Positions 2,698 through 26,014 of a stretch of DNA of 39,429 bases are shown here, one piece after another; position 1 is the stretch's first letter, and each line of letters starts with the position of its first letter. A program made the position numbers and the translations under genes. Source of the stretch: a virus; the IMG/VR virus record IMGVR_UViG_3300008262_000414, positions 1-39,429 of that record, one strand, 5' to 3'. Below the pieces are notes generated by a model. It did not search any database. It was given only the letters and a program-made list of their open reading frames with translations, and had not been told where the DNA came from.

Positions 2698-3049
2698 TAA
2701 ACTCTCTGACCACTATACATCAGCAGAAGCATATACAGATCTAGATGGTCAATCTAGACAGTTTACCTTTATAGATCACGATAAGAAATCAAAAATAAGT
2801 GCTCTTAAACAAACTGAAGAAGAAGTACAAGAAATAAAAAATAGTCTAAATAACTATAGAACTAATCTTGTAAATAGAATTCTTGAAATACCTGCTTCTC
2901 TTTGCCCATTTGAATTTGTAGACTTTACTATAAGAGGTGAAGCTATGGATAAGATTGAATGGAATAAGAAGATGTTAGAGGATGAGGGTTTTCCTTTAAG
3001 TAATCTTATGTCTTTATGCACAATTCTTGAAAACAAGTTTGGTGTATAA
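2687..3049 (+). CDS. Hypothetical helical protein
   Basis: 120 aa, overlapping the preceding gene by 11 bases. An N-terminal polar region is followed by a helical stretch (about 35-65), then a compact C-terminal part with one Cys in a Pro-Phe context near residue 70. No known motif is seen. It is the last gene of the unit that starts at 1579. A 93-base gap carrying a promoter follows. Confidence 0.7.
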   Translation: MAIDKLSDHYTSAEAYTDLDGQSRQFTFIDHDKKSKISALKQTEEEVQEIKNSLNNYRTNLVNRILEIPASLCPFEFVDFTIRGEAMDKIEWNKKMLEDEGFPLSNLMSLCTILENKFGV

Positions 3050-3094
3050 CTTTATAAGTTATAATAACAAGATATATTATTTATCCAAAATAAA

Positions 3095-3126
3095 TTTGGA
3101 AAATTAATTTATTTTCAGTATATTAT
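3095..3126 (+). promoter_or_regulatory. Promoter TTTGGAAAATTAA...TATATTAT with AACCAACAT leader
   Basis: TTTG at 3095-3098, 20 bases, then TATATTAT at 3119-3126, a partial match to TAnnTTTG. The leader ends in AAAACCAACATG, which is nearly repeated before the scaffold-like gene at 10938. It drives the packaging operon. Confidence 0.65.
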
Positions 3127-3142
3127 AGTAAAGAAAACCAAC

Positions 3143-3511
3143 ATGAAAATAAAATCTTTTTCAGATAAGGTTCTTTTAACGAAGAAAAGAGATGTTCTTA
3201 AGTATCATCTATATTTAAAGTTTTTACAGAATAATATCAAGTCATCAGAGAATGATATAGATATTATAATAGAGCTTTTTTTGTTTGGAGGCTATAACAA
3301 TAGTGAACAACAATCAAGATTTATTAAACTATGTATAGAGAAAAACTATAAGAAGACAGATCAAAGTGTAAGGAATACTTTATCAAAATATACAAATATT
3401 GGAATATTTGAGAAGCCTAAAAATACAATCTTAAAAGTAAGTGATGTATTTATTCCATCTTTAGATTTTGATAAACTAATTATAAATCATGTAGTTAGTC
3501 ATGCAGAGTAA
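3143..3511 (+). CDS. Conserved phage protein, possible winged helix
   Basis: 122 aa. The centre has a helix-turn-helix-like pattern (about residues 70-95: acidic/polar helix, QSVRNTLSKY, then Gly and a short basic wing), followed by a beta-like C-terminus. From memory, proteins with this RNTLSKY segment recur upstream of packaging genes in Bacteroidota phages, but their function is not established. It begins 16 bases after its promoter box and overlaps the next gene by 11 bases. A DNA-binding role, for example in late regulation or packaging-site recognition, is possible and unproven. Confidence 0.75.
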   Translation: MKIKSFSDKVLLTKKRDVLKYHLYLKFLQNNIKSSENDIDIIIELFLFGGYNNSEQQSRFIKLCIEKNYKKTDQSVRNTLSKYTNIGIFEKPKNTILKVSDVFIPSLDFDKLIINHVVSHAE

Positions 3512-3902
3512 CACTAGTGAGATATATAAACTAACTTCAAAAAGAACTGGTAAATCTGAACAAAGTTATAAGGATATCGGAAACTTTATATTCTCAGAAC
3601 TATATAAAGAACAGAAGAGACCCTCAAAACTAATTATAAAACTAAAAGGTTTAGGGTCCTTCTTCCTGAGAAAGAAAAGAGTTCAGGAAATAATGAACTG
3701 TTATCCTAAAGAGTTTTCAAGAACAAAGGAGGATTTTTCTTCTGAAAGACAATTCTTAAAGTATGAGAACAAGAAGGAAATCCATGAGATCTTTACAGAA
3801 AGGCTAAAAGATTACGAGGAATATCTACAAGAAAGAAACCAAATAAGAAAAAAAAGATATGAAACTCAAGTATTATTGGAACCTACTGAGGGGAAAGACT
3901 AA
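3501..3902 (+). CDS. Small basic protein with HU/IHF-like core
   Basis: 133 aa, rich in Lys and Arg. Around residues 43-65 the pattern LIIKLKGLGSFFLRKKR resembles the beta-turn of HU/IHF proteins (hydrophobic strand, G-x-G-[ST]-F, then basic residues), which binds and bends DNA. The rest is helical and charged and there is no full-length HU match, so the call is tentative. crAss-like phages are known to encode IHF-like proteins, which makes the reading plausible. It overlaps both neighbours, upstream by 11 and downstream by 44 bases, so the cassette is expressed together. Confidence 0.6.
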   Translation: MQSNTSEIYKLTSKRTGKSEQSYKDIGNFIFSELYKEQKRPSKLIIKLKGLGSFFLRKKRVQEIMNCYPKEFSRTKEDFSSERQFLKYENKKEIHEIFTERLKDYEEYLQERNQIRKKRYETQVLLEPTEGKD

Positions 3903-4215
3903 AGCTCTAAACCCAGCTAAACTTACTTTTAGAAATATATATGCTGTAATACAGTCAATTTTTAGAAGAAGTATACAAGGCTTTTCTATACAAACTCATA
4001 TTTATGAGCAAGCTGTATGGAGAAGAACACAAGTAATGTTAAAATCACCCCAGTGTTGGGAGGAAGGCAACTGTATACATTGCGGTTGTGAAATGCTAGG
4101 TAAAACAATTGAGGATAGAGGTTGTGAAAATGAACCTAGATGTTATCCTGATATGATGGGTAAAAAGGAGTGGAAACAATTTAAATTATCTAATAACATT
4201 AAAATTTTTGAGTAA
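3859..4215 (+). CDS. Zn-ribbon-like cysteine-cluster protein
   Basis: 118 aa, start nested 44 bases inside the previous gene. After a basic helical N-terminus, residues about 66-95 hold a Cys cluster of the form C-x5-C-x2-C-x-C ... C-x5-C, followed by a Tyr-Pro-Asp-Met-Met segment. The spacing suits one or two structural zinc sites. I recall similar CxxCGC...CYP proteins in Bacteroidota phages without an assigned function. A nucleic-acid or protein-binding ribbon is the likeliest role. Its last base is the first base of the next ATG (TAATG). Confidence 0.7.
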   Translation: MKLKYYWNLLRGKTKALNPAKLTFRNIYAVIQSIFRRSIQGFSIQTHIYEQAVWRRTQVMLKSPQCWEEGNCIHCGCEMLGKTIEDRGCENEPRCYPDMMGKKEWKQFKLSNNIKIFE

Positions 4216-4517
4216 TGTTACAACCAAACCAACATTTAATCTCTTTAGGAGATTTAAAGTATGGACAACCATACAGTTTTAAGTATTCATTAAAGAATGC
4301 CTCTGAACAACCAATCACAGTAAACCGAGTAATGGTAGGCTGTGGTTCATGTACAACTGCAAACATCCATAAGTTATTAATCTCTCCTGGTGAAGAAACT
4401 GACTTAGATGTAGTATTTACTCCTGGATCTACAGGAATACAAAGAAAAGGTATCACTATCCAATATAATGATACTGATTCAGTTGTACTAAATTTCACCG
4501 CAAGTGTAAATGAGTAA
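4215..4517 (+). CDS. DUF1573-like immunoglobulin-fold domain protein
   Basis: 100 aa consisting of a single beta-sandwich-like domain. It shows the DUF1573 hallmarks: a hydrophobic strand ending in Val-Gly-C43-Gly-Ser-C46-Thr, a central Ile-Ser-Pro-Gly-Glu turn (56-60), and a following strand VVFTPGSTG that continues into a second basic strand. DUF1573 domains are common in Bacteroidota and are usually exported, but this one has no signal peptide, so it probably acts in the cytoplasm or in the virion. Two Cys close together could bind metal or form a disulfide. It sits between the Zn-ribbon gene and the nuclease, with TAATG and ATGA-type overlaps. Confidence 0.7.
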   Translation: MLQPNQHLISLGDLKYGQPYSFKYSLKNASEQPITVNRVMVGCGSCTTANIHKLLISPGEETDLDVVFTPGSTGIQRKGITIQYNDTDSVVLNFTASVNE

Positions 4518-5319
4518 AGTACAATTTATTCAAGATTCTCACAGGTATGTTTCAGATGATGGATCAGAATTGATATCTGTCTCTAAATTTACAGAGAGAT
4601 TCAAAGAAAAGACTGATTGGAAAAAGGTAGCAAATAAAATTGCAAAGAAAGAGAGTGCCAACGGTAATCCAACAACTACTGATGATATATTGAAGAAGTG
4701 GGAGAATAAAAGAGATATATCTGCAAAGGTTGGAACAATGTATCATAACATCAGAGAGCAGGAACTCCTCAATTTAGAGGGGTCTCCTGTTTTCTATGAA
4801 AAGGAATGCTCTGTTATGAATCATGAATTTGAAGGAGAAAATAAATATTCAATTGATATCTCGTGTCTACAAAATGATACAGTTTATCCAGAATTGATGA
4901 TTTATGATTTTGATAATATGATATGTGGACAATCAGATAAAGTTATTATAGTAGATAATAAGATACATATTTGGGACTATAAAACTGATGCTGAGATAAA
5001 ATTTAGCTCTTTCTCATCAAAGTGGGTAAAACCTAAAAAGTTATTAGGACCACTATCACATCTAGATGAATGTAATGGAAACATATATTCTATAAAGATG
5101 TCAATATATATGTATCTTTTATGGAAAGCTAATAAAGGAAGATTTAAACCTGGTGATATAGTAATAGAACATATACATCTCAAGAGAGATCCAGAGAATG
5201 ATAATATTCCAGTACTTATAGATGATAAACCATTTGTAGAGAAGATTGAGACAATAACTATTCCATATAGAAGAAAAGAGGTAATTGAAATGTTAAAATC
5301 TTTAAAGAATGATTCCTAA
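4510..5319 (+). CDS. PD-(D/E)XK family nuclease
   Basis: 269 aa. The signature of the RecB/Cas4-like branch is visible: Gly-Thr-x-x-H79 followed by a helix, then an acidic residue (E128) before Gly-Gln-Ser-D143, then beta strands and the D156-Y-K158-T core. Asp143, Asp156 and Lys158 would hold the divalent metal and catalyse DNA cleavage. A nuclease beside the terminase could trim DNA ends, act in recombination-linked replication or degrade host DNA; the sequence does not choose among these. Length is normal for a stand-alone domain. It overlaps the DUF1573 gene by 8 bases and the next gene by 11. Confidence 0.85.
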   Translation: MSKVQFIQDSHRYVSDDGSELISVSKFTERFKEKTDWKKVANKIAKKESANGNPTTTDDILKKWENKRDISAKVGTMYHNIREQELLNLEGSPVFYEKECSVMNHEFEGENKYSIDISCLQNDTVYPELMIYDFDNMICGQSDKVIIVDNKIHIWDYKTDAEIKFSSFSSKWVKPKKLLGPLSHLDECNGNIYSIKMSIYMYLLWKANKGRFKPGDIVIEHIHLKRDPENDNIPVLIDDKPFVEKIETITIPYRRKEVIEMLKSLKNDS

Positions 5320-5821
5320 GATACTAGAATATGAAGAGGATAGAATAAAAGTTACAGCACAGGCATATGCAATACCTGAGATAAAAGATATTATTGATAA
5401 ATATGATATGGGTGCTGAACCATATCTTATGTTTGTATATGCTATGTCAGCAGTTGATTCTCCTTATATAAACATTCCAGAAGAAGAAAAAGTTGAGAGT
5501 ATTGTATATGATATAAGCTATACACTAGGTCAATTTGATTATGAAGAAGAGCTACTTACAATAGCTATAGATAAACTTAAATCTTTATATTCTTCTCCAA
5601 TTGTTTTACTTGCAAATGAACTAGAACAAGAATTACATAGACTGAGAAAGTATTTAAGAGATACTCCAGTTGTAGGTGGATCAGAAGGAAACTTTAGAGA
5701 AAGAATGTCTCTTATGGAAAAGATTGATAAGATAGCCAATTCTTATCAGAAGGTTAGAAAACAAGCTGATGAAGAATTAAAAGTTGCCACTAAAGGAGAT
5801 CATGAAATAGGAGAGTACTAA
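5309..5821 (+). CDS. Conserved helical protein upstream of TerL
   Basis: 170 aa, almost entirely helical and acidic, with a basic/polar helix near residues 105-135 and no cysteines. It stands directly before the large terminase gene, two bases away, where many phages keep the small terminase subunit. I see no helix-turn-helix signature to prove that role, and crAss-like phages are generally described without a recognisable TerS. It is a conserved packaging-operon protein and a candidate terminase partner on position alone. Confidence 0.75.
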   Translation: MIPKILEYEEDRIKVTAQAYAIPEIKDIIDKYDMGAEPYLMFVYAMSAVDSPYINIPEEEKVESIVYDISYTLGQFDYEEELLTIAIDKLKSLYSSPIVLLANELEQELHRLRKYLRDTPVVGGSEGNFRERMSLMEKIDKIANSYQKVRKQADEELKVATKGDHEIGEY

Positions 5822-5823
5822 TT

Positions 5824-8058
5824 ATGATAAATAAAATTTGGGAATTTCCTTTAAAGATACAAAAGATAGATACTTCAAAAGAAGGTATTGAATATGAAGT
5901 ATTTGAGAAAGAGGAAGATTTTGAAAAGTTTGTAAGATCCCAATTTAAACTTCCAGGAAAGTATAACCTTAAGAATACAAAAAGATGGCAAGATGTAGGA
6001 AGGCAATATGCAAATAGTGTAAATAAACCAAACTTTGAAGGAGGTCAATATACAAAAGCAATTAAGGGAACTCATAAATATAAACAGTTTTGGTCAAACG
6101 AGAAAGAAAAAGTAAAGAATGGAGTTATTATAGATAATATCTATATACCTCCATTTTATTATTGGTACCTAAACTTCTGCCCTATATATAATGATGTTGT
6201 AGGAAAGAAAATGTTTGGCAATGTATGGGATAGTGATCTTTGGTTCTTTCATTATATAACATTATGCATGGTGACTGGAAAACATGCGTGTATTGTAAAA
6301 ACTAGACAAAGAGGTTATTCATTTAAGATAATGGCTCTTTTATACTGGAGTTACTCTTGGTTTGAAAGCTCAGTAAATACAATTGGTGCATATAAAGAAG
6401 AGTATACTGTAAAGTCTTGGAGGTTCTTAGAGTTTTATAGAAAACATTTGAATTCAGGTGCAACTGCATGGAAAAGAGGACCAATTGTACCAAAATCACT
6501 AGAGTGGTATGAAAGAACTCCACTAGTTGACGGAGGTTATGTAGGATTGGATAGTAAGTTATCTGCAACTACATTTAAAGTATCTCCTGAAAATGGTGTA
6601 GGTGGATCTCAAACAATATTCTTTTATGAAGAGGCAGGGGTTGCACCAACTCTTTTACAAACTTTAGGTTATATTAGACCAGCTCTTGAAAAGGGTAATA
6701 GAACTACAGGTTTAATTATTTGCAGTGGATCAGTTGGTGATCTAGATGATGCAGAAGATATAAAAGAAGTATTCTACAATCCTGAATCACATAACTTTCT
6801 TGGTATAGAGAATATATGGGATGATAATGAGATGAGAGGAAGACCATGTGGTTTATTTGTATCAGAGGCTTATAATTTAGAAGGTTTTATAGATGAAGAA
6901 GGAAACTCAAATGTAGATAGTGCTACAGAATTTGTTTTAAAAAATAATGAGGCCATCAAGTCAAAGAAAAGAAAAGATCTTGCACAACTTGATATATCTC
7001 AAAAGCCACTAAGTCCAAAAGAAGCATTTGCACAAAGAAAGAGTTCTGAGTTTCCAATAGATCAACTTCTTGCACAACAAGATAGAATCAAGTTAAAAGA
7101 TAGTGAGAATAAATGGAAATTTAAACCTATAAAGTGTGTACTATTTGAAGATGAATCAGGAAAAGTAAAATTAAGAACTACAAATCTTCCTGAAGAACAT
7201 AAGTATCCAATTATACCAGACTGGGAAGATAAAAGAGGTGTGGTCACAATATATGAAATGCCTGAGGAAAACCCAAAGTGGTTAACTAACTTTGCAGGAG
7301 TGGATACAGTAGAGGTAGATGTTACAACTACATCACATTCAGTAATGTCTGTGGATATCTACAAGAGAATGGTAAAGGTTAAGTATAAAGATACTGATGG
7401 TAAAATAAAAACAAGAATTGAGGGAGGTAAGATTGTAGCTACATACAGAGGAAGATATGATCCTGTAGAGAGGGGAAATGAACAAGCTTGGTTACTTGTA
7501 AAACTATTTAATGCATTTACATATGTAGAGAGATCTAAACCTAATTTCATAAATTATATGAAAAGGAATGGTAGAGCAGAAAAATATTTGGCAAAAGAGT
7601 CAGATGTTACTATATTTAAAGATCTAAACATAAATGCAGGTTTATCAAATTCAAACTATGGTTTTATAATTTCTCCACAAAATAATATGTGGAAGATATT
7701 AAAAAATAATGTGAAAGAATACTTTCAAACAGAATTTGATAGAAGAGAGAAGTCTGATGGTGAAGTCCTTAAAATATATACAGGTATAGATAGGACAGAT
7801 GATTATTGGTTGATTGAGGAGTATGTAAGATATAATGAGAAAGATAACTTTGATAGAATTATTTCTCATAGTGCAGCAATAACAATAGGTAAAGTTTATG
7901 AAAGTGAACTTGGAATTCCTACTGTAAATGAAGTAAAAGAAGAACCAAAGGAACAAATTTATATACCTCCTAAAAAGATATCATTATTGGGAGGAAATAA
8001 AACAAGTAGAAATTTATACACAAACAAAAGATTTAAAAAATCTTATACAATATTATAA
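5824..8058 (+). CDS. terL: Terminase large subunit (TerL)
   Basis: 744 aa DNA-packaging motor. The N-terminal ATPase has a Walker A-like loop at about 159-167 (KTRQRGYSF, the K/R-rich variant seen in many TerL), a Walker B strand ending in FFYEEAG (266-272) with the catalytic Glu, and a coupling motif IICSGS (298-303). The C-terminal nuclease of RNase H fold begins near 488, with the first Asp in AGVDTVEVD (491-499). TerL docks on the portal, translocates DNA and cuts concatemers. Length fits the crAss-like family. The gene is followed two bases later by the portal gene, which is the usual order. Confidence 0.96.
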   Translation: MINKIWEFPLKIQKIDTSKEGIEYEVFEKEEDFEKFVRSQFKLPGKYNLKNTKRWQDVGRQYANSVNKPNFEGGQYTKAIKGTHKYKQFWSNEKEKVKNGVIIDNIYIPPFYYWYLNFCPIYNDVVGKKMFGNVWDSDLWFFHYITLCMVTGKHACIVKTRQRGYSFKIMALLYWSYSWFESSVNTIGAYKEEYTVKSWRFLEFYRKHLNSGATAWKRGPIVPKSLEWYERTPLVDGGYVGLDSKLSATTFKVSPENGVGGSQTIFFYEEAGVAPTLLQTLGYIRPALEKGNRTTGLIICSGSVGDLDDAEDIKEVFYNPESHNFLGIENIWDDNEMRGRPCGLFVSEAYNLEGFIDEEGNSNVDSATEFVLKNNEAIKSKKRKDLAQLDISQKPLSPKEAFAQRKSSEFPIDQLLAQQDRIKLKDSENKWKFKPIKCVLFEDESGKVKLRTTNLPEEHKYPIIPDWEDKRGVVTIYEMPEENPKWLTNFAGVDTVEVDVTTTSHSVMSVDIYKRMVKVKYKDTDGKIKTRIEGGKIVATYRGRYDPVERGNEQAWLLVKLFNAFTYVERSKPNFINYMKRNGRAEKYLAKESDVTIFKDLNINAGLSNSNYGFIISPQNNMWKILKNNVKEYFQTEFDRREKSDGEVLKIYTGIDRTDDYWLIEEYVRYNEKDNFDRIISHSAAITIGKVYESELGIPTVNEVKEEPKEQIYIPPKKISLLGGNKTSRNLYTNKRFKKSYTIL

Positions 8059-8060
8059 TT

Positions 8061-10838
8061 ATGGCAAACAAATTAATTTGGGGTTCTGATTTATATAAAG
8101 GTTTTAAACTAGATAGCAATGCTTTACTTGGAGGTAATATAGATGATTTACTTCCTTTTCAGATGTTAAGTCTAGAAGAGAAAACTAATGACTGGGTAAG
8201 AGCAGTTGCAGATTATTATGAAATGGCAGGATGGTTAAATGTAGAGAGAAGAGCTGGTAGGATTCAGAAGAACTACTGGATGAGATATGGAAAACTTAAT
8301 CAATCAGACTATATAATCAATCCTGATATAAATGAATATTCTCAGGCAATTGGAATGATTGTACCTCAAGAATCACAATCTCCTCTTGAACAATTTTATC
8401 CTCTTGTTCCAAACTTTATAGATGTACTGAGAGGTGAATTTATTAAAAGAGAGAATCAGTGGACAGTACAAGCAGTAGATCAATACTCTATAGATGAAGC
8501 CTTTAAATATAAACAAGAAGAATTTACAAAAATTGTACAGGAGTTTGCACTTGTAGAAAAAGAGAGAGCATTAGCAACAATGGGATTTTCACAAGAAAAA
8601 GATCCTGAGGCATATCAACAAGAGCTTGAAAAAGCTATGGCAAAGTTTCAAGAGCTTGAGATGAGCAGTAGAAGTTATAGAACAACTGGTGTAAAATGGG
8701 CAGAAAAAGTATTAAGAATACAAGAGAGAAGATTTGATCTATTTGAAATTGAACCAGATGCATTTGAATCAATGTTAATTACAGATAGTGAGTTCTGGCA
8801 CTTAGATCTTTTAGATGATGACTTTAAACTAGAATTGCTAAATCCTAAATTCTGTGATTACCATAAAGGTCCAAATGTTAAGTATGTAAGTGATGGTGAT
8901 TATTTTCTATGGTTTGACTTTATGTCTTCTGGAGATATAGTTAATAGATATGGAAGAAGAATGAAAGAAGAGGACTTAGTTAAACTAAAAGAGATATATG
9001 TAAAAACAGCTAATATAATTGTTCCAGATTATCTAAAGAGCCATCAAGGATCATATTATGATACTTCTAAAAATTGGTTAGATGCAACAGATATGAATCC
9101 TGTAATGAATGATGCATTACTTGGAAAGGAACTTGCATATAATTTTATGAGAACTCCAAACTTTGATCATAATCAAGAAGTTGATTTACTTAACCCTGTT
9201 TGGGGAAGAAGAGTTACTGGTCAACCTCAAATGTTTAGAGTAATGAGATTGTACTGGAGAGCAATGAAAAGAATTGGATGGTTAACAAAAGTAAATAGAG
9301 ATGGTAGTTATGAAGAGTCACAATGGATAGATGAGAACTTTAAAGTAACTATTGAACCAAAATATGATACATCTGTAAATAAGAAAAAAACAAAAGATAA
9401 TCTAATTTATGGTGAACATGTTGATTGGACATGGGTTCCTGAATGGAGACATGTAATTAAGATATCTCCAAATCAGAAACATACATTCTGGATGAATTCT
9501 CAGAATACATTACATTCAATTTATATTGATGGAGAACCTGTACAATTCCAATTCAAAGGAAGAAATAATCCATTTGATTCTCTTCCTCCTGTAGAAGGAT
9601 GTACATTTAGTCATATCAATACATCTACACATTCTCTAGTAGATAGATTGAGACCATTCCAAATTCTGTATAACATTGCAATGAATAGAGTCCCTAAGAA
9701 AATCCTAAAAGATTATGGAACTAAGATTGCAATAGATAGAAGAATTATGTCTACTAACAATCTATCAAATTCTACAAATACTGTAGATCCAATGGAGGCA
9801 TATGATGAAAAGCTTAGAGAATCAGATATATTTGACTACACTTTATCTAGAGAAGCATTAGATGGAGTAGGTCAACCTGCACTTCCACAAGTATTAAATT
9901 TAACAACTGTACAAGAATCACAGTTCTATTTACAACTTTCACAAATGTTAAAGATGGAAGCAGGTGAGGTTATAGGTATTACAAGAAATAGACTTGGTCA
10001 AGTTAAACCTTCTGAAACAGCTTATGGAATACAACAAGGTATACAGCTTTCAGAAACTCAAACAGAAAAGTATTTTGAACAACACTCAAACTTAATGCAG
10101 AGAGTTAGACAAAGAATGTTGGATGCTGCTCAATATTACACTACCTTTGTAGAGAAATCTAGAGATATATACATGAATGATAAAGATCAAAATGTATTTC
10201 TAGAAATAGAGGGTATGGAAAATTTACTTCCTCATTATAACATATTCTTACAAACAAGAGCAAATGTAAGAGGTGCATTACAAATGATAAGTCAATTCTT
10301 ACTTGGTGAAAATACACTTCCAATCAAACCTTCTGCAAAAATAGAAGCTATAGTACAAACATCTATACCTGCTATTATTGATCTTGTTAAGAAGGGTGAA
10401 ATTGAACAAATTGAAAGAGAAGAAAGACAAAGAGCTCACGAACAAGAAATGGCAGATAAGCAAGCTCAAAGCAATGAAAAAATGCAACAAGAGAAACTTG
10501 CATATGAAGCTGAACAAGCAGAACTTGACAGACAGAAAGATCTTGAAGTTGCTACAATTAGATCACTTGGAGGAATTCAGTCTGATAATAATCAAAATAA
10601 TGTTGTTGATGCAAATGAAAATCTTAATGCTTACTTTAAGCAAAAAGAACTTGATAACAAATCAAAGTTGATATCAGACCAGAATAATATCAAGAGACAA
10701 AGTGAAGTAAATAAAATGGTAATAGAAAAAGAAAGAATGAATACAGAGTTAGAAAAAGAAAAAATCAAAGGTGATTTTGCACTTAAAGTAGCTAAGGAAA
10801 ATAAAACAAATGCAGAGATTAATAAAAATAAAAAATAA
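8061..10838 (+). CDS. Portal protein
   Basis: 925 aa, directly downstream of TerL. The first ~760 residues are the portal core: mixed alpha/beta, aromatic-rich, with a long segment (about 600-720) rich in Gln and helix that corresponds to the stem/crown part. The last ~150 residues are an uninterrupted charged, Gln-rich coiled coil ending in Lys/Asn. Such a tail could form a barrel projecting into the capsid, as in P22. The dodecameric portal is the DNA entry channel and the base for tail assembly. A 99-base gap with its own promoter separates it from the capsid operon. Confidence 0.94.
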   Translation: MANKLIWGSDLYKGFKLDSNALLGGNIDDLLPFQMLSLEEKTNDWVRAVADYYEMAGWLNVERRAGRIQKNYWMRYGKLNQSDYIINPDINEYSQAIGMIVPQESQSPLEQFYPLVPNFIDVLRGEFIKRENQWTVQAVDQYSIDEAFKYKQEEFTKIVQEFALVEKERALATMGFSQEKDPEAYQQELEKAMAKFQELEMSSRSYRTTGVKWAEKVLRIQERRFDLFEIEPDAFESMLITDSEFWHLDLLDDDFKLELLNPKFCDYHKGPNVKYVSDGDYFLWFDFMSSGDIVNRYGRRMKEEDLVKLKEIYVKTANIIVPDYLKSHQGSYYDTSKNWLDATDMNPVMNDALLGKELAYNFMRTPNFDHNQEVDLLNPVWGRRVTGQPQMFRVMRLYWRAMKRIGWLTKVNRDGSYEESQWIDENFKVTIEPKYDTSVNKKKTKDNLIYGEHVDWTWVPEWRHVIKISPNQKHTFWMNSQNTLHSIYIDGEPVQFQFKGRNNPFDSLPPVEGCTFSHINTSTHSLVDRLRPFQILYNIAMNRVPKKILKDYGTKIAIDRRIMSTNNLSNSTNTVDPMEAYDEKLRESDIFDYTLSREALDGVGQPALPQVLNLTTVQESQFYLQLSQMLKMEAGEVIGITRNRLGQVKPSETAYGIQQGIQLSETQTEKYFEQHSNLMQRVRQRMLDAAQYYTTFVEKSRDIYMNDKDQNVFLEIEGMENLLPHYNIFLQTRANVRGALQMISQFLLGENTLPIKPSAKIEAIVQTSIPAIIDLVKKGEIEQIEREERQRAHEQEMADKQAQSNEKMQQEKLAYEAEQAELDRQKDLEVATIRSLGGIQSDNNQNNVVDANENLNAYFKQKELDNKSKLISDQNNIKRQSEVNKMVIEKERMNTELEKEKIKGDFALKVAKENKTNAEINKNKK

Positions 10839-21933: not shown

Positions 21934-23031
21934 ATGTCTTGTAATCATACTGATCCTTGTAAAGATCCTTGTAACACAGATCCTTGCTATGATAATTGTG
22001 GATGTTTAAATCCTACAACATTTGAATGTGTTACAAAACCAGGAAATCATCATGATATTAAGGTTAGTAATGATATGAATGGAAAGCAGGTTTTATCTGC
22101 TTTAAATAATAGAATTGCAGAACTTAATGATCTTTCTGGTAAAGTTGCTATAGATCACGATGATCTTTGTCCAAATAATCTTGTTGATAAAATTGAAGCT
22201 GGTGCTAATGTTTCTATTTCTCAAGTTGGAACAGGATGTGATAAAAAACTAGTTATAACAGCAGGTAGTGGTATTGGTCCTGCTGGTGCTGATGTAAATG
22301 TAAAAGTAACATCAAGTGATACAACTTCAGGATTTTTATATAATAAAATTAATGTAGGCGCATACCTACAAAAAGCAATACAAGGAGGTGGAGGAAATCA
22401 AAAATTAATTATTGATTTAGCTTCACTCTCTAATTTTATATCTACTGATGCTGGAAATGCTTTAGTTCTAGGTGCAGACTCTAAGTTAAAAACTTTATAT
22501 AGCATACCTGATGGATCTGAAACTAAAATACAAGGAGCAGGTGCTGTAACTGTAACAGGAATTGGAACTAATTCTGATCCTTATATTATTTATTCTAATG
22601 CATCAGTAACTCCAAAAAGAGCTAAGTTTGATGGAGTATGGAAAACTTTAACAATGACTCCTCCTGCAGGCGTATCAGTTATTTCAAATAAAGCATCTTA
22701 TAGATTTAGATTTGATGGTACAATTGAGTTTAAAGGAAGAATCCAGTTTGGTGTAACATATAGTAGTTTAGCTACAATTACTGCATCATCTTTATTTACG
22801 TTTCCTGTTGGACCAAATGAAGCTATATTAAATGCATCAGAAATTATAGATCCATCATTTATTAAATCAGTATCTACTTATTCTGCTCCATCATTTGATA
22901 TATATGACATATTTGTACAATCTGGAAAACTTGGAGTTAGATTTACATATACTGGAGCATTACCTTTAACTAGCCCAAGAGTATTTAATGTAGACTTTGA
23001 TTCTGCTGTTTATCATTTAAACATACCTTAA
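21934..23031 (+). CDS. Fibre protein, candidate receptor-binding protein
   Basis: 365 aa. Residues 1-35 hold seven Cys, including three Asp-Pro-Cys units made by a repeated GATCCTTG in the DNA (21952, 21964, 21979). Residues 40-75 contain the short helical N-[GD]...L..L..RI pattern common at fibre bases. Residues 121-139 have the VKVTSSDTTSGFLYNKI-type segment that recurs in Bacteroidota phage fibres. Gly-rich repeats follow, then a beta-structured C-terminal domain (about 228-365) that would be the distal knob. It is the last gene of the appendage operon, the usual place for the receptor-binding part. Confidence 0.72.
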   Translation: MSCNHTDPCKDPCNTDPCYDNCGCLNPTTFECVTKPGNHHDIKVSNDMNGKQVLSALNNRIAELNDLSGKVAIDHDDLCPNNLVDKIEAGANVSISQVGTGCDKKLVITAGSGIGPAGADVNVKVTSSDTTSGFLYNKINVGAYLQKAIQGGGGNQKLIIDLASLSNFISTDAGNALVLGADSKLKTLYSIPDGSETKIQGAGAVTVTGIGTNSDPYIIYSNASVTPKRAKFDGVWKTLTMTPPAGVSVISNKASYRFRFDGTIEFKGRIQFGVTYSSLATITASSLFTFPVGPNEAILNASEIIDPSFIKSVSTYSAPSFDIYDIFVQSGKLGVRFTYTGALPLTSPRVFNVDFDSAVYHLNIP

Positions 23032-23071: not shown

Positions 23072-23098
23072 ACCCCTATTTCTATAGGGGTTTTTTTT
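23072..23098 (+). terminator. Terminator after the fibre gene
   Basis: ACCCCTAT-TTCT-ATAGGGG followed by eight T: a 7-8 bp stem, 4-base loop and a U-run, 41 bases after the stop codon. Confidence 0.92.
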
Positions 23099-23118
23099 GG
23101 AAAAAAATTAATAAAAAA

Positions 23119-23150
23119 TTTGGAAAATATAAAAAAAATTCCTATATTAG
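23119..23150 (+). promoter_or_regulatory. Promoter TTTGGAAA-N16-TATATTAG
   Basis: TTTG at 23119-23122, 20 bases, TATATTAG at 23143-23150. The mini-protein ATG follows six bases after the box, so the message would be nearly leaderless. It is the first promoter of the accessory island. Confidence 0.7.
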
Positions 23151-23156
23151 TATTAG

Positions 23157-23240
23157 ATGATTATAAATAAAAACATATATGAACCATGTTGTGCCCAATG
23201 TCAAATTGAGGGTGGTTGCATTATATGTATAAAAAAATAA
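23157..23240 (+). CDS. 27-aa cysteine mini-protein 1
   Basis: A 27-residue frame with five Cys in the pattern C-C-x2-C-x5-C-x2-C, ending in Lys-Lys. The pattern suits a small metal-binding knuckle. Its N-terminus (Met-Ile-Ile-Asn-Lys-Asn-Ile-Tyr) resembles that of the second mini-protein at 23433, which supports both being real. A competing 17-residue frame from the ATG at 23178 has no such features. It has its own promoter and terminator, and a tRNA-Cys follows 62 bases downstream. Function unknown. Confidence 0.5.
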   Translation: MIINKNIYEPCCAQCQIEGGCIICIKK

Positions 23241-23267
23241 GATCGGCCAAACAATACATATAGAATC

Positions 23268-23296
23268 ACCCTTGATTTAAAATCAGGGGTTTTTTT
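23268..23296 (+). terminator. Terminator-like hairpin upstream of tRNA-Cys
   Basis: ACCCTTGAT and ATCAGGGGT pair with one G-U, followed by seven T. The tRNA gene begins seven bases after the T-run, so the tRNA either depends on read-through or the hairpin guides 5' processing. Confidence 0.8.
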
Positions 23297-23302
23297 ATTT
23301 AT

Positions 23303-23373
23303 GGAAGTATAGCCAAGTGGTAAGGCAAGGCTCTGCAAAAGCTTCATCATAGGTTCGAATCCTATTACTTCCT
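23303..23373 (+). tRNA. tRNA-Cys (anticodon GCA)
   Basis: Folds as a normal 71-base tRNA. The acceptor stem GGAAGTA/TACTTCC is a perfect 7 bp. The D arm is GCC/GGC with an AGTGGTAA-type loop. The anticodon stem AGGCT/AGCTT carries loop CTGCAAA with GCA at 23335-23337. The variable region is 4 bases, the T stem is ATAGG/CCTAT and the loop is TTCGAAT. The discriminator base is T, the identity base of cysteine tRNAs. CCA is not encoded. It sits among cysteine-rich genes and could raise Cys decoding capacity late in infection. Confidence 0.95.
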
Positions 23374-23383
23374 CAAAAAAAAT

Positions 23384-23420
23384 TTTGAAAAGTTTGAAAA
23401 ATTTAGTATATTAGTACTAA
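23384..23420 (+). promoter_or_regulatory. Promoter with overlapping palindrome TTAGTACTAA
   Basis: TTTG (23384-23387), 19 bases, TATATTAG (23407-23414). A perfect 10-base palindrome TTAGTACTAA (23411-23420) covers the end of the box and the expected start point, followed by a further AGTAC. This is where an operator would sit. It drives the 23433-24386 genes. Confidence 0.6.
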
Positions 23421-23432
23421 TAGTACTTTTAT

Positions 23433-23531
23433 ATGATAAAAAATAATATTTTATATGGATGTGGTTGTGGTAAGCCAAAACCACCTGTGCCAACAAAGCC
23501 AGCAACAGTAGTAAAAACAATAAAACAATAA
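23433..23531 (+). CDS. 32-aa mini-protein 2 with CGCG motif
   Basis: 32 residues: a short Ile/Asn/Tyr-rich start, Gly-Cys-Gly-Cys-Gly (9-13), then a Lys/Pro-rich stretch and a Thr/Val/Lys tail. The start lies 18 bases after a promoter box and the stop two bases before the next gene. The N-terminus aligns with mini-protein 1, so the two are probably related. C-x-C with Lys/Pro tails is seen in small metal- or membrane-associated peptides, but no family is known to me. Confidence 0.5.
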   Translation: MIKNNILYGCGCGKPKPPVPTKPATVVKTIKQ

Positions 23532-23533
23532 TT

Positions 23534-23779
23534 ATGGCAAGTTTAATTGATAAAGTAAAAGTTAAGGCTGGTCGCCTTATAAGAGTCTGGAATACAGAGA
23601 AGAAAAAGTTTTCTAATGCTAAACCCTGGTATATCTCTGTATGGGTAGAAGATGCTGATGGAAAGAATGAAAGATGTCTTCTTTTTACAGATCAAGAAAT
23701 ATTAAGGGCAGAAATTAGAGCTTCTAAGAATGCAGAAGATCTAACATCAAAAGGATTCTTTACAGATATAATTGATTAA
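23534..23779 (+). CDS. 81-aa protein of unknown function
   Basis: 81 aa, two bases after mini-protein 2. Compact, with a basic N-terminal half holding several Trp/Tyr (WYISVWVED around 32-40) and an acidic helical C-terminus. It has one Cys. The alternating hydrophobic pattern suggests a small beta-barrel or ferredoxin-like fold. No signal peptide. It is co-transcribed with the lipoprotein and protease downstream. Confidence 0.7.
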   Translation: MASLIDKVKVKAGRLIRVWNTEKKKFSNAKPWYISVWVEDADGKNERCLLFTDQEILRAEIRASKNAEDLTSKGFFTDIID

Positions 23780-23794
23780 TTAATAGTTACAAAT

Positions 23795-23947
23795 ATGAAA
23801 AAAGCAGTATTTTTATTTCTACTTATTAGTAGTTTGATTTCTTGTGGTTCAGGAGAAGGTTCTTCTGTAGAAACCAAAGTTGATTCAGTCCAAGTTGACA
23901 GTGTTAAGGTTGACAGTGTTAAGGTTGATAGCACAGTAAAGAAATAA
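23795..23947 (+). CDS. 50-aa lipoprotein with four VDS(V/T) repeats
   Basis: Translated from ATG 23795: a Lys-Lys start, a hydrophobic core (5-13), then lipobox Leu-Ile-Ser-Cys (14-17), a typical signal peptidase II site. The mature part is only 34 residues: a Gly/Ser/Glu linker followed by four pentapeptides [KQ]-V-D-S-[VT]. Each repeat contains Asp-Ser-Val or Asp-Ser-Thr, which fits the Bacteroides periplasmic O-glycosylation site D-(S/T)-(A/I/L/M/T/V). The protein should be attached to a membrane facing the periplasm or cell surface. Small phage lipoproteins often block superinfection. A CPBP protease gene follows seven bases later. Confidence 0.75.
   Translation: MKKAVFLFLLISSLISCGSGEGSSVETKVDSVQVDSVKVDSVKVDSTVKK
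23876..23935 (+). repeat. Four tandem 15-base repeats in the lipoprotein gene
   Basis: Four consecutive 15-base units built on AAGGTTGACAGTGTT. Units two and three differ at only two positions; the first and last are more diverged. Each encodes one KVDSV-type pentapeptide. Confidence 0.85.
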
Positions 23948-23954
23948 GTATCCA

Positions 23955-24386
23955 ATGATATCATTAAAAATAAAAAATATTATTATTGGATATTTTTTAT
24001 GTTTAATTTGGATAATCTTTATAAGTTATTTATATAACATTTTAGGACATTATGAAATTATAGAGGAGTCGGAGCAATCTGACTCCTTTTATTATTCAAT
24101 ATTCTTAGTATGTATATGGGCTCCTATTTGGGAAGAAGCATTGTATAGATATGGCCCACTCACAATAGCAAAAAATATTGATAATCAACATATTATACCT
24201 GTTGCAATAATAGCATCTTGTATATTTGGCTGGGGACATGGGGAGTCTCATGAAGGTGTATTAGTACAAGGAGTTCTAGGATTAATCTTTTCAATAGTCT
24301 ATATTAAAAATAATTTTTGTTATTTTTCTTCAGTTTTACTACATTCATTATATAATACAACTCTAGTCATTTTAGAAAATATTTAA
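23955..24386 (+). CDS. CPBP-family intramembrane metalloprotease
   Basis: 143 aa with about four hydrophobic segments. All three motifs of the CPBP (CAAX protease and bacteriocin-processing, Abi) family are present: EExxxR (E60-E61-A-L-Y-R65), FxxxH (F91-x3-H95) and HxxxN (H130-x3-N134), the Glu and His residues that bind the catalytic metal and activate water. It is shorter than most family members, near the minimal core. Members cleave within membranes and are tied to bacteriocin immunity and prenyl-protein processing. It follows the lipoprotein gene by seven bases, so that protein, or a host membrane protein, is a plausible substrate. Confidence 0.85.
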   Translation: MISLKIKNIIIGYFLCLIWIIFISYLYNILGHYEIIEESEQSDSFYYSIFLVCIWAPIWEEALYRYGPLTIAKNIDNQHIIPVAIIASCIFGWGHGESHEGVLVQGVLGLIFSIVYIKNNFCYFSSVLLHSLYNTTLVILENI

Positions 24387-24412
24387 AAAAGCCGAAAAAA
24401 AACCGAAAAAAA

Positions 24413-24444
24413 TTTGGAAAGTTAAAAAAGCAGTCTTATCTTTA
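24413..24444 (+). promoter_or_regulatory. Promoter TTTGGAAA-N16-TATCTTTA
   Basis: TTTG at 24413-24416, 20 bases, TATCTTTA at 24437-24444. It precedes the 59-aa HTH gene with a 36-base leader, the longest among these promoters. Two CCGAAAAAAA direct repeats lie just upstream (24392-24410). Confidence 0.65.
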
Positions 24445-24480
24445 CACTGTTATTGATTCATAACTTTAAAAATTAAAAAA

Positions 24481-24660
24481 ATGAAAAAGATGTCTATGAC
24501 ACAAACAATCAAAACCCATTTAGTTAACAACAATTCTTATTTCAAATGGGGTAAAGAAAGATTGGCTGCAAAGTTTGGATGTTCAGTTAAAACAATTACA
24601 TCAGTAATTAATAACTTGAAAGCCGAAAAGGTTAACTACCTAAGAAGCTTACAAAACTAA
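24481..24660 (+). CDS. 59-aa helix-turn-helix protein
   Basis: 59 aa, single HTH-like domain: helix (ERLAAKF, about 26-32), turn with Gly-Cys-Ser, and recognition helix (VKTITSVINNLKAEK, about 36-50). It aligns with residues 10-45 of the phosphoesterase gene downstream, sharing S-Y-[FL]-x-[WM]-G ... [RK]-L-[AS]-x-[KR]-[FW]-x-C-[ST], so one is a copy of the other's DNA-binding part. It has its own promoter and is followed by a terminator hairpin. A small repressor or competitor of the longer protein is the natural hypothesis. Confidence 0.75.
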   Translation: MKKMSMTQTIKTHLVNNNSYFKWGKERLAAKFGCSVKTITSVINNLKAEKVNYLRSLQN

Positions 24661-24678
24661 TAGTTTCGCTGGTCAAAA

Positions 24679-24715
24679 GTAAAGGGAGGAATAAAACCTC
24701 CCTTACTTATTTTTT
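24679..24715 (+). terminator. Terminator between HTH gene and phosphoesterase
   Basis: GTAAAGGGAGG / CCTCCCTTAC with one bulged A, a 7-base loop and a T-rich tail. The phosphoesterase ATG is only 15 bases further on, leaving no room for a separate promoter, so that gene needs read-through. Confidence 0.8.
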
Positions 24716-24730
24716 ACAAAAAAATAAAAT

Positions 24731-26014
24731 ATGAATATAGAAAAAATAGCTGATAAGTTTATAAGTAATCCTAGCTATCTACAGATGGGTGCTGGTAAAC
24801 TAAGTAAAAGATGGAAATGTACAAAAGATGATATTTATCTAGCAAAAGAAAGAGCTAGAGAGTTTATTACATCAACTGAAATATCAGAGTTAAATAATAT
24901 AATTTCTGAACAGGAAAATACAATTGCAAAATATATTGGATCAGAAACAACTGATGGTGTCACACTTAAAAAGTTTGAATCAGTACGTCCTTTATCTCCA
25001 GAAGAAATAAAAGAACTTGCTCAAGTTGATGGTATAAATACTAGAGTTGCAAGAGTATGGGATAAGTTATTACCAAATGGAAAGTGGGTATATAGCATTG
25101 ATATAAGATATAATATAAATGATTTCTATAATACTGTAGAACTTCAGGAAAAACTAAAAGAAATATTTCCTGTAATTCCACCTGTAAAGCTTCCAGTTGT
25201 TACTAAAGTATCTGAAAAAGCAGCAGTTGTTCTATTATCAGATGATCATGCTGGAGCAGTTATACAGAATAGTATGTTTGGAAATGAATGGAATGAAGAT
25301 ATTTATAGAGAAAGGCTTCTTAAAGTAAGTAATGAGCTAAAGAAACTGGATATTAAATTTGAGGAAGTTCATATTATATCTCTTGGAGATCAAATGAATG
25401 GCTGGAATAGTCAAACTACAAGAGGTGGTCATGAAGTTAAATCCTTATCAAATAAGGAACAATTTGATATCTATACAAGAGCAAGGGTAGCTTTTTATGA
25501 TGATATACTTTGTTCTGGAGTAGCCAAAGACTATATTATACATGATGTAGAAAACTCTAATCATACTGGTAAGGATTTCTCATATATGGCAAATAGTTTT
25601 TTAGATATGTATCTTAAAGCAAAGTATCCTACAGTAGAAAGAAAATCATACTTTTTACCTGTAGAATCTTTTGATTATGGAATACATACTATTGGATTTA
25701 CTCACGGTAAAGATGAGAAATTAATGACTAGAGCAATGCCACTTAAATTAGATCCAAAAACAGATCTTTTCTTATTCCAACTATTTGATAAGAAAGGTTT
25801 ATCACCTTCTACCAGAAGGATTACTCTGTATAAGGGAGATCTTCATCAGTATGCCCTAGATAAGGGAAAATTTGGTAGATATGTAAATATCCCTTCTATA
25901 ATGGGATCTACAGATTGGACAGAGATAAACTTTGGAAATACTGAAGGAGGAGCAATAATTGAGATATTTGATAAGAATTCAAGATCTGTACAACATGTAC
26001 CAGTCTGGTTTTAA
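24731..26014 (+). CDS. HTH-calcineurin-like metallophosphoesterase
   Basis: 427 aa. Residues about 1-45 are a HTH-like domain related to the upstream 59-aa protein. From 163 the phosphoesterase core shows D171-x-H173, G219-D220-x-x-N223, N277-H278, T324-H325-G and a final G369-D370-x-H372, the metal ligands of the calcineurin-like superfamily. It should hydrolyse phosphodiester or phosphomonoester bonds with two metal ions; the HTH suggests a nucleic-acid substrate. Related genes occur in the structural block of crAss-like phages, so it may be a virion enzyme. A terminator follows directly. Confidence 0.85.
   Translation: MNIEKIADKFISNPSYLQMGAGKLSKRWKCTKDDIYLAKERAREFITSTEISELNNIISEQENTIAKYIGSETTDGVTLKKFESVRPLSPEEIKELAQVDGINTRVARVWDKLLPNGKWVYSIDIRYNINDFYNTVELQEKLKEIFPVIPPVKLPVVTKVSEKAAVVLLSDDHAGAVIQNSMFGNEWNEDIYRERLLKVSNELKKLDIKFEEVHIISLGDQMNGWNSQTTRGGHEVKSLSNKEQFDIYTRARVAFYDDILCSGVAKDYIIHDVENSNHTGKDFSYMANSFLDMYLKAKYPTVERKSYFLPVESFDYGIHTIGFTHGKDEKLMTRAMPLKLDPKTDLFLFQLFDKKGLSPSTRRITLYKGDLHQYALDKGKFGRYVNIPSIMGSTDWTEINFGNTEGGAIIEIFDKNSRSVQHVPVWF

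Follow-up and report, generated by a model that had tools for sequence, protein, structure and literature searches.

A candidate leader-peptide attenuator ahead of tRNA-Cys in a variable locus of a crAss-like phage, with counterparts on the tRNA arrays of its relatives

We propose that a tRNA-Cys gene located between the fibre and phosphoesterase genes of a crAss-like phage is controlled by a ribosome-mediated transcription attenuator, and that relatives of this phage gate whole tRNA arrays in the same way; we put the probability of this reading at about 0.8. Computation showed the order of the parts, the mutually exclusive RNA pairings, the match between leader peptides and tRNA blocks, and the variable content of the locus. 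The DNA analysed, referred to here as the window, is a 39.4-kb IMG/VR virus fragment taken at its full length. It comes from a distant crAss-like phage of Bacteroidota, as judged by the relatedness of its portal and large structural protein to those of Crassvirales-like phages and by its Bacteroidota-type promoters.

The interval of interest is bounded by the fibre gene (21934-23031) on the left and by a gene for a metallophosphoesterase/exonuclease-like protein (24731..26014, + strand), the syntenic flank, on the right. The initial annotation had listed three promoters, two mini-ORFs, a tRNA, an 81-aa protein, a lipoprotein, a protease and an HTH protein between these genes, and all of them are present, the tRNA being tRNA-Cys. 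Its remark that this was not a recognisable set was also a fair one: the island is a hot spot made of three transcription units and has no single functional set. Unit 1 consists of promoter P1, a 27-aa Cys-rich ORF, a terminator and tRNA-Cys; unit 2 of P2, a 32-aa ORF (mini32), the 81-aa protein gene (p81), the lipoprotein and the protease; and unit 3 of P3, the HTH gene (HTH59) and a hairpin. The possibility that the whole island is one joint system was rejected because the contents of the units change independently.

The promoter motif, TTTGRAAA-N15/16-TATNTTWN, is of the Bacteroidota type and was derived from the three island sites themselves; it has five perfect matches in the 39.4 kb, all on the + strand (1543, 3095, 23119, 23384 and 24413), and none in 20 Markov shuffles. 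Three of the matches are P1 (TTTGGAAA-16-TATATTAG; 23119..23150, +), P2 (23384..23414, +) and P3 (24413..24444, +), each of which is recognisable in the sister phage (L012/L071), and the two outside the island also sit just upstream of genes. Strong terminators were identified at 23072-23091 and 23268-23290. The former (+ strand), with a stem identical in the sister phage, closes the fibre/structural operon, and the latter belongs to unit 1. The hairpin 3′ of HTH59 (24682..24704, +) is without an immediate T run.

The 27-aa leader peptide of unit 1 (MIINKNIYEPCCAQCQIEGGCIICIKK; 23157..23240, +) contains five Cys residues, all conserved in the sister phage, and the enrichment is significant (5 Cys of 26, P = 3e-5). 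Its ATG is positioned 6 nt past the −7 box of P1, and the predicted transcript is nearly leaderless; therefore, a ribosome could load at the very 5′ end. Within the leader ORF lies region 1 (AATTGAGGGTGGTT; 23204..23217, +), the antiterminator partner of region 2 (AATCACCCTTGATT; 23264..23277, +). Region 2 is also predicted to fold with region 3 into a terminator hairpin followed by a T run (23268..23290, +), and tRNA-Cys (GCA) begins 13 nt past this terminator (23303..23374, +; ARAGORN; Rfam 67.4 bits). In the predicted folds of the window, a free region 1 pairs with region 2 at 14 of 14 positions (MFE −21.9 kcal/mol), and occlusion of region 1 lets the terminator form instead, with 10 of 10 pairs (MFE −17.3). 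The corresponding values in the sister phage are −27.4 and −18.7; there region 1 is unchanged and regions 2 and 3 are altered, and both helices remain paired. The conservation of the leader residues IEGG is explained by the need for region 1 to pair as RNA. Both phages thus carry in full a mutually exclusive antiterminator and terminator with region 1 inside the ORF, and this short ORF, which follows the promoter and precedes both the terminator and the gene to be controlled, has regulatory codons cognate to the operon product.

Since tRNA-Cys is the only tRNA downstream of the window leader, the amino-acid match is modest by itself, and its strength comes from the relatives described below. 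No T-box riboswitch was detected in the window at the Rfam gathering threshold, the tRNA being the sole Rfam match. The Cys content of several structural proteins encoded at 15.5-23 kb is 2.5-4.7%, and that of others there is 1.7-1.9%, against 1.4% overall. Codon demand alone was considered as an explanation of the Cys unit and rejected, as it leaves the leader and the hairpin unexplained.

In the mechanism we envision, RNA polymerase would start at P1 and a ribosome would translate the leader at once. With Cys-tRNA plentiful, the ribosome would cover region 1, regions 2 and 3 would form the terminator, and no tRNA-Cys would be made. With Cys-tRNA scarce, the ribosome would stall at the Cys codons, leaving region 1 to pair with region 2, so that no terminator would form and tRNA-Cys would be transcribed. 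Leader translation, stalling, and the choice between termination and read-through in vivo are what we infer from the arrangement of the parts, and the scheme assumes that the hosts couple transcription tightly to translation. In the array relatives, the same device would act on what are usually three tRNA operons, with each leader including the amino acids that the tRNAs of its operon serve. The presumed benefit to the phage would be a supply of those tRNAs that run short because of codon demand or because they are lost during infection.

In the five relatives that carry arrays, a Cys/His/Trp-rich mini-ORF lies immediately upstream of the first tRNA block, and each of the remaining blocks has its own mini-ORF and hairpin, giving three such elements apiece (usually three tRNA operons). 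The leader MIVDRINGAEK is found upstream of tRNAs for Lys, Val, Arg, Asn, Met, Gly, Glu, Asp, Ile and Ala; LSYYSSLSLL upstream of those for Leu, Ser and Tyr; and HRTHTWFTTCPQCPF upstream of those for Pro, Thr, Cys, Phe, Trp, Gln, His and Arg. All amino acids of the respective block were present in the leader in 15 of 15 cases (five genomes), and among 7,776 within-genome permutations no other assignment of leaders to blocks scored as well as the true one. In this comparison, leaders that share a block type are homologues and, hence, non-independent. The Arg codons are CGT/CGC ahead of tRNA-Arg(ACG) and AGA ahead of tRNA-Arg(TCT), and block B of L086, which is without tRNA-Arg, has a sensing run (MIVDNGIGANEK) without Arg. 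Taken alone, the in-set fraction is weak for the block B leaders (P = 0.015-0.27) because the amino-acid set of that block is so large. The arrays hold other elements as well. A tRNA with a CTA anticodon (amber suppressor type; labelled Pyl by ARAGORN) occurs in the array of L087 (7236-7308; the same phage as L072) and has its own promoter-like site. A conserved protein of about 160 aa (YVNIVKHTLEQL...GTDSQ) is encoded inside four of the five large arrays (L084 6197-6679; L085 7042-7527; L087 5118-5648; L088 9031-9507, reverse).

A blind scan that took no account of tRNAs required three things: a terminator, a segment farther upstream that is complementary to the terminator's 5′ arm, and an ATG ORF that spans this segment and ends before the 5′ arm. 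The loci scanned, about 90 and in part overlapping, amount to 2.26 Mb of strand. They yielded 23 elements, and in 22 of these a tRNA follows at a distance of 6-15 nt; shuffled sequence (1.11 Mb) yielded none. Exactly one element, the Cys unit, was found in the window. Of the 22 terminators before tRNAs, 15 were attenuator-like, as was 1 of the 65 at other places (Fisher P = 9e-11). The region 1:2 helix was complete in the unconstrained fold for just 7 of 15 elements. The default scan missed the leaders L087 C, L088 C and L086 A and two leaders of phage phi38:1 (L1 and L3), which were found by reading. A pattern-scan match in L096 was dismissed as a chance match, there being no tRNAs.

Because leaders of the same type are homologous, an independent case was sought, and it was provided by the cultured Cellulophaga phages phi38:1 and Calle_1. 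These have three leaders and partition the code unlike the array relatives. The leader MNIATDIRTKGVK precedes tRNAs for Lys, Ile, Gly, Met, Asp, Thr, Val and Arg(TCT), with a tRNA-Ala, read by eye, ahead of Lys. The leader YNNFSWYSNCSFSSYN precedes Ser, Ser, Asn and Phe tRNAs, and Trp too in Calle_1; Tyr and Cys tRNAs were also read by eye in this block, the Cys one being a weak Rfam match only. The leader LLHQEPLEQLRLP precedes Pro, Glu, Gln, His, Leu and Arg(ACG) tRNAs. The true assignment was the best of six, even when only the tRNAs called by ARAGORN were used. In crAss001, which has 23 tRNAs, the scan found no leader/attenuator element. Both phi38:1 and Calle_1 also encode a tmRNA (Rfam RF00023; L177 804-1165 and L178 18951-19312) near the attenuated arrays.

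The initial annotation had described the interval as a cargo (moron) locus that should vary or be absent in related phages between syntenic flanks. This was borne out in a comparison with ten relatives, the distant ones retrieved via the large structural protein: the flanks were syntenic, and the content was variable or absent. The sister phage has the same gene order, including tRNA-Cys, and a phosphoesterase that is 85% identical. The interval is empty in L078 and L079, where about 100 bp separate the fibre gene from the phosphoesterase gene; it holds a LeuRS-like gene and tRNA-Arg in L004, a lysozyme and small genes in L027, and arrays of about 17-26 tRNAs with HNH-like and other small genes in L084-L088 (L085 is truncated by its contig end, and L075 is its continuation). 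We conclude that the cargo description holds for the variable content and for unit 2, especially the 81-aa gene, and is mistaken or falls short for the tRNA, the Cys mini-protein and HTH59; the tRNA-Cys is a remnant or minimal form of the tRNA-array locus. Upstream of the LeuRS-like gene of L004 (409 aa, TIGR00396 E = 3.6e-99, shorter than the family) are a 25-aa Leu/Thr-rich ORF (MKYTITLSSTHLPLWITTTLGGIIK) and a −7-type box (3247-5086), and this ORF is possibly a leader for a synthetase. In L027, an HTH mini-gene (3021-3206) and a GIY-YIG-like gene (7309-8145) have one in-frame TAG each, and the large genes have none. Recoding of TAG in L027 is unsupported, as these two are the only genuine-looking ORFs concerned; pseudogenes, suppression or errors are the alternatives.

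Unit 3 belongs with the phosphoesterase side and is not cargo in the sense that p81 is. HTH59 (24481..24660, +) is a separate small protein related to the N-terminal domain that the phosphoesterase carries (24731-24850; hhalign probability 93%, E = 2.7e-7), and its match to HTH_36 (E = 1.2e-4) is below the gathering score. Counterparts stand immediately upstream of the phosphoesterase gene in four other relatives (L004, L027, L086 and the sister phage), and HTH59 is therefore semi-core. A similar mini-HTH gene occurs inside the tRNA array of L084 (5147-5317).

Unit 2 is real cargo. Its first ORF, mini32 (23433..23531, +), ends 2 nt before p81 and is conserved in the sister phage; its GCGCGKPKP motif recurs in the N-terminal part of an L088 leader peptide. 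The p81 gene (23534..23779, +) is common to many unrelated Bacteroidota phages, with homologues on about 35 viral contigs of widely differing gene content, and its DNA is 88% identical to that of an unrelated phage contig versus 86% to that of the sister phage. Among 396 Flavobacteriales genomes, p81 matched a locus of Flavobacterium caseinilyticum, prophage-like in appearance, and one weak match, nothing more. The label of mobile cargo fits p81 best. No reliable match to p81 was found in PDB, PHROGs, PADLOC or NCBIfam, and an AlphaFold model was discarded (pLDDT 49). In L060-L065, p81 homologues adjoin GroES-like phage genes, and in L065 apparently a GroEL-like one as well. The next gene encodes a small lipoprotein of 50 aa with VDS repeats (23795..23947, +; lipobox LISC by direct reading), followed by a CPBP/Rce1-like intramembrane protease (23955..24386, +). 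The protease resembles the known family (PF02517, E = 1.3e-11) in scoring above the gathering threshold (45.1 versus 22.4 bits) and in having the three catalytic motifs EExxxR, FxxxH and HxxxN intact, and differs in being phage-borne and 143 aa long; among annotated phages, a CPBP match was seen only in Bacillus phage G. The protease is a repeated occupant of the interval, since in both L084 and L085 its gene comes directly after that for the fibre. Another CPBP gene is found in L031, a 118.8-kb phage contig, between ORFs of 1,550 and 1,627 aa (4935-5423).

One could envision that the lipoprotein and the protease form a superinfection-exclusion or envelope-modifying pair. Phage T5 Llp is a small lipoprotein encoded near the receptor-binding gene with such a role, and the window lipoprotein likewise lies near the fibre region; in L084 and L085, it is the protease gene that comes immediately behind the one for the fibre. 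However, no lipoprotein counterpart was seen beside the protease in L084, L085 or L031, and a lysis role for unit 2 would be equally possible; we regard the pairing as unlikely. A broader proposal would extend the moron interpretation to every small gene of the island, the Cys mini-proteins being independently expressed host-interacting proteins and the hairpins plain terminators. In its favour are the promoters of their own that the genes have, their low conservation among relatives, and the occurrence of p81 in unrelated phages. Against this, the 27-aa ORF is tied by position to tRNAs rather than to other cargo, its counterparts in relatives hold their amino-acid composition while changing its order and match the tRNA block, and region 1 pairing accounts for the conserved EGG residues. 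We consider the proposal improbable, and the Cys mini-protein, presented initially as host-interacting, is better read as a cis-acting leader peptide for tRNA-Cys.

We give very little credence to a further explanation, in which the hairpin merely ends P1 transcription or marks tRNA processing, the tRNA is transcribed by read-through from the structural operon or from a promoter that escaped notice, and the composition of the leaders is a matter of shared ancestry. Read-through and processing may occur, and leaders within a block type are indeed homologous, but the leaders of phi38:1 and Calle_1 match their blocks despite a different code partition, and the type of Arg codon tracks the isoacceptor. 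Furthermore, a strong terminator stands upstream of P1, and the gap from terminator to tRNA is just 6-15 nt.

Returning to the attenuator, we think it reasonably likely that in this phage family some three tRNA operons share out the genetic code, and that the charging level of an operon's own tRNAs gates it through its leader. The tRNA supply would then be self-correcting, and destruction of tRNAs by host defences could be detected as well. It is an open question for what reason, and at what time, tRNAs are expressed by phages, and a leader that spells the downstream amino acids tells what the phage senses. The spelling yields direct predictions, which are testable now since phi38:1 and Calle_1 are grown with known hosts. 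Should the reading be correct, multi-tRNA sensing in viruses would come within the range of classical attenuation, and the leader ORFs that annotation now lists as hypothetical proteins would gain a function.

The proposed tRNA-gene control device would be a new variation on classical attenuation and is the most interesting part of the variable locus. A search of the open-access literature found no earlier report of leader-peptide attenuation of phage tRNAs, which is no proof of absence. Large tRNA sets are known in Bacteroidota phages, with arrays of 1-34 tRNAs in some crAss-like groups, and the review that describes them (PMC10136315) makes no mention of leaders or attenuation. As in T-box riboswitches, tRNA charging would be sensed and termination decided; the T-box, however, needs no leader ORF, whereas sensing here would be by translation. 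The closest comparison is with ribosome-mediated attenuation of amino-acid operons such as trp and his, for which a theory has been presented (PMC1183508). Both have a short leader ORF with regulatory codons, a terminator and an exclusive antiterminator, placed between promoter and genes. In contrast to the trp and his systems, the phage elements would control tRNA genes rather than biosynthetic genes, as many as ten amino acids would be sampled by a single leader, the RNA segments involved number only three, and many of the leaders begin 4-9 nt past the −7 box.
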